Shown piece by piece: positions 33,900 to 36,836 of a stretch of DNA of 36,836 bases. The notes below the pieces were generated by a model, which searched no databases, was not told where the DNA came from, and saw only the letters and a program-made list of their open reading frames with translations. Every line of letters begins with the position of its first letter. The stretch's first letter is position 1. The position numbers were made by a program, and so were the translations under genes. The stretch is from Spirochaetota bacterium (GTDB lineage Bacteria; Spirochaetota; Spirochaetia; Treponematales; Breznakiellaceae): NCBI GenBank assembly GCA_009778155.1, contig WRKI01000352.1:1-36836 (forward strand), given 5' to 3'.

Positions 33900-34128
33900 A
33901 GAGCAGAGGAAAAGACCCCGTTGGTTTTATAGTTTTATGAGCTGCAACACCCGGCACCATAAAACACCCCGCCTCCCGCAAATATCGTACAGCAAGAACG
34001 CCTAAAAAGCAAGGCTTATTTTTGGAAATTTTTCAGCAAACCCATACTCAATCCCAAGACTATATATGGAAGATTTCGGCATAAACCGACAAGATGATTA
34101 GGAAAAAAATCGCCCGCCGGGAACGCTC
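33900..34128. other. Divergent gap before the Rpn units
   Basis: No convincing gene. AT-rich words such as ACTATAAAAC on the minus strand may contribute a promoter for the TPR gene. The last bases before 34129 read CTCTAGACAAAA, matching the junction between the two Rpn units, which suggests an earlier unit once ended here. Confidence 0.4.
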
Positions 34129-34157
34129 TAGACAAAAAGGGGCGAAGCCGATATGAT
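34129..34157 (+). promoter_or_regulatory. Promoter of rpn unit 1, leaderless geometry
   Basis: TAGACA (34129-34134), a 17-nt spacer and TATGAT (34152-34157) end six bases before the ATG at 34164. No Shine-Dalgarno sequence is present. The same promoter precedes unit 2. Confidence 0.7.
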
Positions 34158-34163
34158 AAAAAC

Positions 34164-35036
34164 ATGGATGAAGCATCAAAGAGTGAAAGCATCGATTTTT
34201 GGCCGCTAACTATGGACATCGTGTTTAAACTGATCTTCGGGGTTGCAAAAAATGTGGCCATACTGATCGGTTTTCTGAAAGCCGTGCTTGACCTGCCGGC
34301 AGAAGAGTTCGAGGCAATCGAGATCATAGACCCGCACCTTTTACGGGCGCACATTGACGATAAGCTTGGAATACTGGACGTAAAGGTAAAAACGAAGAAC
34401 GGCATAAAGATCAACGTAGAGATTCAGGTGCAGCCCAGAAGCGACTTCCCCAAGCGGGTAAGTTTTTACCAAGCCAAGATGATCGGCGAGCAGGTGAGCA
34501 AAAGCGGCAGGTATTCGGATATTCAAAAAGTGGTGAGCATAATCATCACGGATTTTAAGCTGTTTCAGGACGACGGACACTATTACAGCCGTTTTACAAT
34601 GTACGACCCGGCCAACGGGCGGGAATTTCCAAAAACGCAGGAAATCCACGTTTTGGAGCTGCCCAAGCTGCCGGAAACGGAAGACGGCACGGAGCGTTGG
34701 GCATGGAGCAAGTTTTTCAAAGCGAAAGATATGGAGGAGTTAAAAATGATAGCGGAAAAGTTCCCGGCAACGGAGATAAAACAAGCGGTAGCCCGCTATG
34801 CGGAACTGACCCAAGACGAGAAAACCCGTATGCTCATCGAAGCCCGCCAGATATACGAGGTAGACAGAAGGCAGGAAAGAGACTTCGCCGAAGCCAGAGG
34901 CGAAGCAAGGGGTGAAGTAAAGGGGCAGGAAAAAGAGCGTTTGGGGATTGCTAAAAAACTTTTGCTTGCCGGCGATTCCCCGGAAAAAATATCCCAAGTT
35001 ACAGGCCTTGACATTGAAACTATCAGAAAACTCTAG
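34164..35036 (+). CDS. Rpn family PD-(D/E)XK nuclease/putative transposase, copy 1
   Basis: This 290-aa protein is of the recombination-promoting nuclease (Rpn, PDDEXK_2) family. The nuclease core shows FWPLTMDIVFKLIFG, then GILDVKVKT (D72) and NVEIQVQ (E86-x-Q88), and the family segment RVSFYQAKMIGEQV. The C-terminal ~95 residues are helical: DEKTRMLIEARQIYEVDRRQERD, a Gly/Ala/Glu four-residue repeat (GEARGEVKGQ) and a small terminal helix domain (GDSPEKISQVTGLDIETIRKL). Rpn proteins are reported as toxic phage-defence nucleases held in check by their own C-terminal fragment. Here an internal start with a strong ribosome binding site is at codon 195. It is 72-80 % alike by eye to copy 2. Confidence 0.9.
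   Translation: MDEASKSESIDFWPLTMDIVFKLIFGVAKNVAILIGFLKAVLDLPAEEFEAIEIIDPHLLRAHIDDKLGILDVKVKTKNGIKINVEIQVQPRSDFPKRVSFYQAKMIGEQVSKSGRYSDIQKVVSIIITDFKLFQDDGHYYSRFTMYDPANGREFPKTQEIHVLELPKLPETEDGTERWAWSKFFKAKDMEELKMIAEKFPATEIKQAVARYAELTQDEKTRMLIEARQIYEVDRRQERDFAEARGEARGEVKGQEKERLGIAKKLLLAGDSPEKISQVTGLDIETIRKL
34746..35036 (+). CDS. Candidate nested RpnS-like small product, copy 1
   Basis: Inside copy 1, GGAGGAG (34733-34739) lies six bases before an in-frame ATG at 34746, giving a 96-aa C-terminal product (MIAEKFPATEIK...). The full-length start lacks any such site. This is the arrangement described for Rpn genes, where RpnS is translated separately and blocks the nuclease. Translation from it is inference. 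Confidence 0.55.
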   Translation: MIAEKFPATEIKQAVARYAELTQDEKTRMLIEARQIYEVDRRQERDFAEARGEARGEVKGQEKERLGIAKKLLLAGDSPEKISQVTGLDIETIRKL

Positions 35037-35298
35037 CCCCGATTCCCTGCCGGCGGAGCAGGCAAAGCAGCCTACAGCCGCCTGTGTGGAACTGGCGCAA
35101 GACGAGAAAACCCGTAAGCTCATGGAAGCCCGCCGGATATACGAGGTAGACAGAAAGCAGGAAAGAGACTACGCTCGCAAGGAAGGCCGTGTGGAAGAGC
35201 GTTTGGAGATTGCTAAAAAACTTTTGCTTGCGGGCGATTCCCCGGAGAAAATATCCCAAGTTACAGGCCTTGACATTGAAGCCGTCAGAAAACTCTAG
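35037..35298 (+). pseudogene. Shifted-frame rpn C-terminal fragment 1
   Basis: After the copy 1 stop, the +1 frame reads LPAEQAKQPTAACVELAQDEKTRKLMEARRIYEVDRKQERDY and ends GDSPEKISQVTGLDIEAVRKL, a second copy of the C-terminal ~85 residues. It has no good start or ribosome binding site; the open frame extends back into copy 1 (track 34948). It could be a dead duplicate, or be reached by frameshifting or re-initiation at the copy 1 stop. Its stop codon forms part of the next promoter. Confidence 0.7.
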
Positions 35299-35324
35299 AC
35301 AAAAGTGGGCAATGCGGATATGAT
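35296..35324 (+). promoter_or_regulatory. Promoter of rpn unit 2, leaderless geometry
   Basis: TAGACA (35296-35301, its TAG being the fragment 1 stop), a 17-nt spacer and TATGAT (35319-35324) end six bases before the ATG at 35331. Confidence 0.7.
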
Positions 35325-35330
35325 AAACGC

Positions 35331-36203
35331 ATGGATGAAGCAGCAAAGAGTGAAAGCATCGGCTTTTGGCCGCTAACTATGGACATCGTGTTCAAACTGA
35401 TCTTCGGGGTCGAAAAAAGCCTGGCCATACTCATGGATTTTCTTAGAAGCGTGCTGGATCAGCCGGCCGAAGAGTTCGAAGCCATTGAGCTAGTAGACCC
35501 GCACCTTTGGCAGGAGCACCCTGAAGACAAGCTGGGCATACTTGACATAAAGGTAAAAACGAAGAAGAGCGAGCCGATAAACGTAGAGACACAGGTGTTG
35601 CATAAAAGCAATTTTGCCAAACGAGTAAGTTTTTACCAAGCCAAGATGATCGCGGAACAGGTGGGCAAAGGCGATGATTACAAGAAAATTCAGAAGGTGG
35701 TGAGTATAATCATTACCGATTACAAGATGTTTCCGGACGACGGGCATTACTACAGCCGTTTTACCATGTACGACCCGGCCAAGGGCCGGCAGTTTTCGGA
35801 AATGCAGGAAATCCACGTTTTGGAACTGCCCAAACTGCCGGAGACCAAAGACGGCACGGATCGCTGGGCATGGAGCAAGTTCTTAAAAGCGGAAAATATG
35901 GAGGAGTTGAAAATGATAGCAGAAATGTATCCGGCAACGGAGATAAAACAAGCGGTAGCCCGCTATGCGGAAATGATGCAAGATGAAAAAACCCGCAAAC
36001 TCATTGAAGCCCGCCAGATATACGAAATAGACAGAAGAGAAGAAAGAGAGGACGCTCGCAAGAAAGGCGAAGCAATCGGCGAAGTAAGGGGACAGGAGAA
36101 AGAGCGTTTGGAGATTGCCAAAAAAGCTCTTGCCGACGGCCTTTCCGTGGAAGTAATAAGCAGTTTTACAGGGCTCGACATTGAGACTATCAGAAAGCTC
36201 TAG
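35331..36203 (+). CDS. Rpn family PD-(D/E)XK nuclease/putative transposase, copy 2
   Basis: This is a 290-aa paralogue of copy 1 with the same length and the same core (GILDIKVKT with D72, NVETQV with E86 and Q88, RVSFYQAKMIAEQV). Divergence is spread across the protein and strongest in residues 28-62 and near the C-terminus, where the terminal module reads ADGLSVEVISSFTGLDIETIRKL, not GDSPEKISQVTGLD. That end may change the specificity of any intragenic antitoxin. It has the same promoter, internal ribosome binding site and downstream fragment as copy 1, so the whole unit was duplicated. Confidence 0.9.
   Translation: MDEAAKSESIGFWPLTMDIVFKLIFGVEKSLAILMDFLRSVLDQPAEEFEAIELVDPHLWQEHPEDKLGILDIKVKTKKSEPINVETQVLHKSNFAKRVSFYQAKMIAEQVGKGDDYKKIQKVVSIIITDYKMFPDDGHYYSRFTMYDPAKGRQFSEMQEIHVLELPKLPETKDGTDRWAWSKFLKAENMEELKMIAEMYPATEIKQAVARYAEMMQDEKTRKLIEARQIYEIDRREEREDARKKGEAIGEVRGQEKERLEIAKKALADGLSVEVISSFTGLDIETIRKL
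35913..36203 (+). CDS. Candidate nested RpnS-like small product, copy 2
   Basis: GGAGGAG (35900-35906) lies six bases before an in-frame ATG at 35913, codon 195 exactly as in copy 1, giving 96 aa (MIAEMYPATEIK...). Conservation of the internal site in both copies supports use, although it could be conserved simply through the coding sequence MEELKMIAE. Confidence 0.55.
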   Translation: MIAEMYPATEIKQAVARYAEMMQDEKTRKLIEARQIYEIDRREEREDARKKGEAIGEVRGQEKERLEIAKKALADGLSVEVISSFTGLDIETIRKL

Positions 36204-36519
36204 CCCCGGCTTCTTGCCGGCGGAGCAGGTAAAGCGGTCTACAGCCGTCTATGCGGAACTGGCGCAAGATGAGAAAACCCGCAAACTCATTGAAGCCCGC
36301 CAGATATACGAAATAGACAGAAGAGAAGAAAGAGAGGACGCTCGCAAGGAAGGCCGTGTGGAAGGCCGGATAGAAGGCGAAGCAATCGGCGAAGCAAGGG
36401 GGCTGGAGAAAGCCAGTTTGCTTATCGCCAAAAGCCTTTTGCTTGCAGGCGATTCCCCGGAAAAAGTATCCCAAGTTACCGGCCTTGACGTGGAAACCGT
36501 CAAAAATTTGTCGGTTTGA
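36204..36519 (+). pseudogene. Shifted-frame rpn C-terminal fragment 2
   Basis: After the copy 2 stop, the +1 frame continues FLPAEQVKRSTAVYAELAQDEKTRKLIEARQIYEIDRREERED, then a four-residue repeat run EGRVEGRIEGEAIGEARG and the terminal module GDSPEKVSQVTGLDVETVKNLSV. It is longer than fragment 1 because of extra repeat units. A TTG at 36181 overlapping the copy 2 end could start it, without a good ribosome binding site. The frame has stayed open, which argues against simple decay. Confidence 0.65.
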
Positions 36520-36678: not shown

Positions 36679-36836
36679 ATGAGTAACTTGGGTGTAACTT
36701 TCAGCATGATTTTTCTTTATGGGCAAGTTCTGGTTTCGAGCTTGTATTCCAGCGTGTGCTTTGGAGCGCGCCGGAGGGGGTGTCTTTTGGGCATTTTCCC
36801 CTTTGGATTAGTGGATTTGCCCCCCCCCCCCCCCCC
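36679..36836 (+). CDS. Possible start of an unknown gene, cut by the window end
   Basis: From the ATG after the strong promoter a frame stays open for about 50 codons (MSNLGVTFSMIFLYGQVLVSSLY...) to the edge. It is hydrophobic at first, then Gly/Arg-rich, with no recognised similarity, and it runs into a C homopolymer. It may be a real leaderless gene start, or the transcript may be non-coding. Confidence 0.25.
   Translation, partial: MSNLGVTFSMIFLYGQVLVSSLYSSVCFGARRRGCLLGIFPFGLVDLPPPPP
36820..36836. repeat. Terminal 17-C homopolymer
   Basis: Seventeen consecutive C residues end the window. This is most likely where assembly or sequencing stopped, or an artefact. A genuine phase-variable poly-C tract cannot be excluded. 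Confidence 0.9.

Follow-up and report, generated by a model that had tools for sequence, protein, structure and literature searches.

Two rpn genes lie in tandem near the right end of the window, the whole stretch of 36,836 nt analyzed here, which is contig C352 of a 3.51 Mb genome in 353 contigs. Each gene is followed directly by a second copy of its C-terminal part in the +1 frame. This arrangement raises the question of what the downstream copies are: additional antitoxins, extensions reached by frameshifting, a store of alternative C-termini, or remnants. The explanation we consider probable is that the locus consists of Rpn toxin-antitoxin units of a known kind, accompanied by start-less relics of the antitoxin part that recombine with the genes beside them.

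Anatomy and family identity of the two units

The coordinates given for both units in the original prediction proved right and are listed in Table 1. The genes are of equal length, with an exact offset of 1167 nt, and their proteins share 76% identity. An assembly duplication was rejected as the source of the two units because their DNA differs by approximately 18–21%.

Table 1. Features of the two Rpn units in the window
Feature	Coordinates	Strand	Evidence
Leaderless-type promoter and gene 1 start, CTAGACA...TATGAT-N6-ATG	34128..34166	+	sequence pattern, transcription start predicted
Gene 1 (290 codons), RpnL, full-length nuclease	34164..35036	+	TIGR01784 E=1.2e-44, PF12784 E=6e-47
Gene 1 internal start, GGAGGAG-N6-ATG, codon 195	34733..34748	+	SD-ATG survey
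Predicted antitoxin of gene 1 (RpnS part, 96 codons)	34746..35036	+	alignment; comparison with PMC10327210
Fragment 1 (86 codons, +1 frame), start-less RpnS copy	35037..35298	+	alignment
Leaderless-type promoter and gene 2 start; overlaps the fragment 1 stop codon	35295..35333	+	sequence pattern
Gene 2 (290 codons), RpnL, full-length nuclease	35331..36203	+	TIGR01784 E=1e-45, PF12784 E=1e-46
Gene 2 internal start, GGAGGAG-N6-ATG, codon 195	35900..35915	+	SD-ATG survey
Predicted antitoxin of gene 2 (RpnS part, 96 codons)	35913..36203	+	alignment
Fragment 2 (104 codons, +1 frame), start-less RpnS copy with more four-residue repeats	36204..36519	+	alignment

Both genes matched NCBIfam TIGR01784 and Pfam PF12784 over their full length and well above the cut-off. 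Their N-terminal part is the Rpn-family PD-(D/E)XK nuclease domain, with nuclease residues D72, E86, and Q88 present in gene 1 and gene 2 alike. The first RpnS helix contains four-residue repeats whose number varies among gene 1, gene 2, the fragments, and the paralogs; those of fragment 2 include GRVE GRIE GEAI GEAR. A Pfam search gave no DUF4351 match for the C-terminal part of these genes, the PADLOC defence models did not match them, and a sequence search for a solved structure returned none. The structure model of gene 1 (mean pLDDT 46) was too uncertain for use. Family membership, internal start, and four-residue repeats are all consistent with the originally proposed RpnL/RpnS reading, and the assignment of both units to RpnL/RpnS toxin-antitoxin genes is well supported at the sequence level. 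In both units, RpnL is predicted to be toxic and RpnS to neutralize it.

The contig itself ends in a run of 17 C (36820-36836). Several other contigs of this genome have G or C runs of 7–15 at their start or end, and only 3 internal runs of at least 9 occur in 437 kb; the assembly seems to break at G/C runs, and those at contig ends could be phase-variable tracts. Between 36643 and 36836, a further leaderless-type promoter (TTGACA-N17-TATATT, followed after 7 nt by an ATG at approximately 36679) precedes an ORF that enters the poly-C contig end.

Start signals of RpnS and RpnL

The sequence GGAGGAG (34733-34739 and 35900-35906) stands six bases before an in-frame ATG (34746 and 35913) at codon 195 of both genes, as originally predicted. 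To place this signal within the family, we took the RpnS boundary as the stretch 60–140 residues before the stop and surveyed 17 Rpn ORFs in this genome and 34 in the genus for Shine-Dalgarno (SD)-preceded ATGs. Such an ATG was found at the boundary in 17 of 17 and 30 of 34 genes, respectively (47 of 51 together). Among all ATGs at the RpnS boundary in this genome, 18 of 63 were SD-preceded, compared with 3 of 73 elsewhere in the genes (p=8e-5); the corresponding counts in the relatives were 31 of 117 and 1 of 103 (p=8e-9). The context of the internal ATG differs by subfamily (GGAGGAGTTAAAA-ATG, GGAGGTAAAAGAT-ATG, and AAGGAGGCGCTAAAA-ATG), a difference that favours selection acting on the start as such. 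The SD and ATG at codon 195 are the predicted translation start of RpnS, and this signal is position-specific across the genus.

The main start looks different. Both genes carry TAGACA-N17-TATGAT with a -10 box that ends six bases 5' of the ATG, and neither has a Shine-Dalgarno site before its main ATG, in agreement with what had been predicted. We searched the genome with the pattern CTAGAC-N16-19-TATNNT-N5-8-ATG, using the reversed pattern as a control, and obtained 13 distinct sites in 3.5 Mb versus 1 for the control. Nine of the 13 belong to rpn genes or, on C269, to rpnS fused in frame; the remaining sites lie ahead of a DUF1902 protein that appears HicB-like by eye, an eight-codon leader/ParE-type toxin, a protein without a Pfam match, and a lipoprotein-like gene. 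Under a general promoter criterion, a leaderless-type start was found for 11 of 16 Rpn genes and 19 of 299 background ORFs in this genome (p=3e-9), and four divergent Rpn genes (L012-L015) apparently have SD starts. The other genomes of the genus contain 0–2 sites of the CTAGAC pattern each, about the control level, and their Rpn genes mostly have ordinary Shine-Dalgarno starts; the promoter was rejected as a genus-wide feature. Judged by these patterns, the leaderless-type start is a trait of most Rpn genes in this genome and not of the family. Genes 1 and 2 would be transcribed without a leader from their putative promoters; the literature on leaderless transcripts in Treponema yielded nothing useful. 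Paired with a strong internal start, a promoter of this type points to a simple means of holding antitoxin above toxin, and we infer an L/S ratio of this kind in these units.

The same kind of promoter was seen at several other positions in the genome. On contigs C344 and C58 (L123 and L114), the rpn-type leaderless promoter precedes the eight-codon leader, with a leader stop that overlaps the ParE-type toxin's ATG, and the DUF1902 gene; it may mark toxin-antitoxin genes in this genome. On contig C269 (L122/L048), a leaderless rpn start is fused in frame to an RpnS part, giving 53 aa with the nuclease domain deleted. On contig C334 (L110, 11878-18456), five adjacent ORFs on one strand each have a leaderless-type promoter, with TAGAAT 6–8 nt before the ATG.

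Origin and fate of the downstream fragments

Both fragments are homologous to the C-terminal domain of the gene directly upstream, aligning to codons ~197-290 with 60–69% amino acid identity, and both are open in the +1 frame over the lengths originally described (Table 1). They begin just 3' of the position of the internal ATG, and for this reason the SD and ATG are missing: neither fragment 1 nor fragment 2 has its own start with a ribosome-binding site, and no promoter was found ahead of either. Downstream RpnS copies are common in the genus, and most have kept the Shine-Dalgarno site and ATG. The copies of L045 (same genome), L026, and L057 (two in a row) resemble those in the window in lying directly behind the gene with other repeats and another tail, but differ from them in retaining SD and ATG. 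The L034 copy has SD and ATG further upstream in its frame, and the L078 and L061 copies have kept the ATG without a recognised SD. Within this range, the window fragments are the degenerate end of a known series of downstream copies. A scan of GTDB genomes with the gene 1 protein found no relative, and no close orthologous unit was found outside this genome among 200 family genomes.

Two other loci show further rearrangements. In L057 (1250-2040), two RpnS copies stand one after the other behind the Rpn gene, with GAATAGATGAGGTAATAAATATG at each fusion point; the two have different repeat numbers, and their tails are unlike that of the gene, forming a multi-antitoxin array. In L006 (~413-533, contig C100), an rpn gene is broken by a palindromic insert of ~100 nt, part of which recurs at the start of contig C345 (L099) and has the look of a dispersed repeat.

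Simulations of neutral substitution without frameshifts left both fragments open with P 0.12-0.32; their openness can be explained by chance and is weak evidence of use. The raw dN/dS between fragments 1 and 2 was 0.40, or 0.29 past the first 17 codons. However, part of the differences between the fragments are also differences between the adjacent genes, and once the codons explained by exchange were removed, 8 synonymous and 20 nonsynonymous differences remained and neutrality was not rejected (p=0.29); constraint read from a raw dN/dS below 1 was discounted on this basis. The first 17 codons, which cover part of the first RpnS helix, contain 1 synonymous and 8 nonsynonymous changes. The fragments' own divergence looks neutral, and they are most likely not translated. 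Several features count against reading them as relics: both are still fully open and keep the helix-repeat region and the tail, the raw dN/dS would point to constraint if exchange were left out of account, and a TTG in the fragment frame lies ~23 nt inside the 3' end of each gene, where coupled re-initiation could occur.

The hexamer CTCTAG marks the left edge of unit 1 (34126), the stop of each gene (35031 and 36198), and the end of fragment 1 (35293), where the fragment 1 stop codon overlaps the -35 region of gene 2. With only 31 occurrences in 400 kb on both strands, its presence at the unit edges points to tandem duplication at short homology. Published rpn arrays have been described as direct tandem duplications, with the suggestion that Rpn itself may start the recombination that makes such copies (PMC10327210).

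A four-way alignment of the genes and fragments revealed a block structure. In the 5' block, gene pairs with gene and fragment with fragment; in the middle block, each gene pairs with its own fragment; and in the tail, gene 2 stands alone. Shared runs of polymorphic sites were longer than in shuffled order, at 21 sites for gene 2 with fragment 2 (0 of 10,000 permutations, p<1e-4) and 15 for gene 1 with fragment 1 (p=6e-4). Both fragments have exchanged sequence with their own upstream gene in these significant tracts. Over its last 84 nt (28 codons), gene 1 shares 94% identity with fragment 1 and 83% with fragment 2, but 70% with gene 2 and 64% with L003, its closest gene relatives; the tail of gene 2 is 80% identical to L003, equal to their 80% over the nuclease part. 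From these identities, the gene 1 tail is probably the one that was overwritten, most simply from fragment 1. In the window units, exchange between gene and copy came after the duplication of the unit.

These observations fit the following scenario. The full-length nuclease RpnL would be made from a leaderless-type message, probably with poor translation, and the C-terminal antitoxin RpnS would be initiated separately at the strong internal SD and ATG. A C-terminal piece, cut just behind the internal start, would have become attached 3' of an ancestral gene's stop codon, and the resulting gene-plus-fragment unit would then have been duplicated in tandem, probably at the CTCTAG microhomology. 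The fragments would persist as recombining relics that exchange sequence with the adjacent gene, one outcome being the fragment-type tail of gene 1.

An alternative is that the fragments are translated as extra stand-alone antitoxins from a weak start such as coupled re-initiation at the TTG, comparable to E. coli rpnES (ypaA). Expressed downstream copies have published precedent, and L045, L026, and L057 own copies with SD and ATG; both window fragments are open with the low raw dN/dS given above, and the weak structure model of fragment 2 (mean pLDDT 70) consists of one long and two short helices. On the other hand, neither fragment has the SD and ATG that most copies in the genus keep, or a promoter; the first 17 codons have diverged freely, fragment-specific changes look neutral, and the TTG, part of a conserved ATT-GA codon pair in the gene, may be there by chance. 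This possibility, put forward in the original prediction, is disfavoured for fragments 1 and 2, and we consider it improbable. A +1 frameshift at the gene end, which would fuse the fragment to both RpnL and RpnS as a second antitoxin domain, would agree with the +1 frame of both units, open across the junction, and with the identical CTC TAG CCC CG around the stop. However, AGA AAR CTC TAG C contains no recognisable slippery site; CTC TAG C is not known as one, because Leu-tRNA on CTC re-pairs poorly with TCT. The shared stop-region sequence is accounted for by the duplication of the unit, and frameshifting is very improbable here.

The start-less copies might instead be silent cassettes, that is, untranslated alternative antitoxin tails selected as a store of C-termini and copied into the adjacent RpnL/RpnS gene by gene conversion. 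Speaking for this idea are the tracts of exchange in both units, the fragment-type tail of gene 1, and the hypervariable C-termini of published Rpn proteins. Gene conversion between close tandem repeats needs no selection for it, though, most other downstream copies have kept their start, and in the middle block of unit 2 the exchange may have run in either direction; we regard the idea as rather unlikely. The predicted stock for swapping C-termini is supported as an evolutionary effect, given the exchange in both units and the apparently overwritten gene 1 tail, but not as a purpose for which the copies are retained. If the cassette idea were true, the rewritten gene 1 tail would be one such event. 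One DNA segment encodes the C-terminal end of the toxin as well as the antitoxin, so a tail copied in from the neighbouring fragment would alter both partners together, and their common C-terminus would change in one step and still match itself. Rpn antitoxin tails vary fast, and copies that swap sequence with the adjacent gene may illustrate how these tails change. Under the preferred reading of the fragments as recombining relics, the new point is the evidence that a downstream copy rewrote the tail of the adjacent gene.

Comparison with known Rpn systems

Genes 1 and 2 show no essential difference from the families TIGR01784 (Rpn family recombination-promoting nuclease/putative transposase) and PF12784 (PDDEXK_2), and their internal start agrees with the one demonstrated for RpnS in E. 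coli and C. difficile (PMC10327210). The downstream copy had been called new in the original prediction, but second RpnS copies of E. coli rpnE (downstream rpnES = ypaA) and rpnC (downstream rpnCS), as well as tandem rpn arrays, are already described, and the rpnES copy is made as protein (PMC10327210). The published independent origin of downstream RpnS copies, each of which clusters with its own gene, should be read with caution, as this pattern can equally reflect gene conversion. Like rpnE/rpnES and rpnC/rpnCS, the window units combine an internal RpnS start, a second copy of the RpnS part on the 3' side, and variable four-residue repeats; unlike rpnES, their fragments are start-less copies in the +1 frame that begin directly 3' of the internal ATG position.
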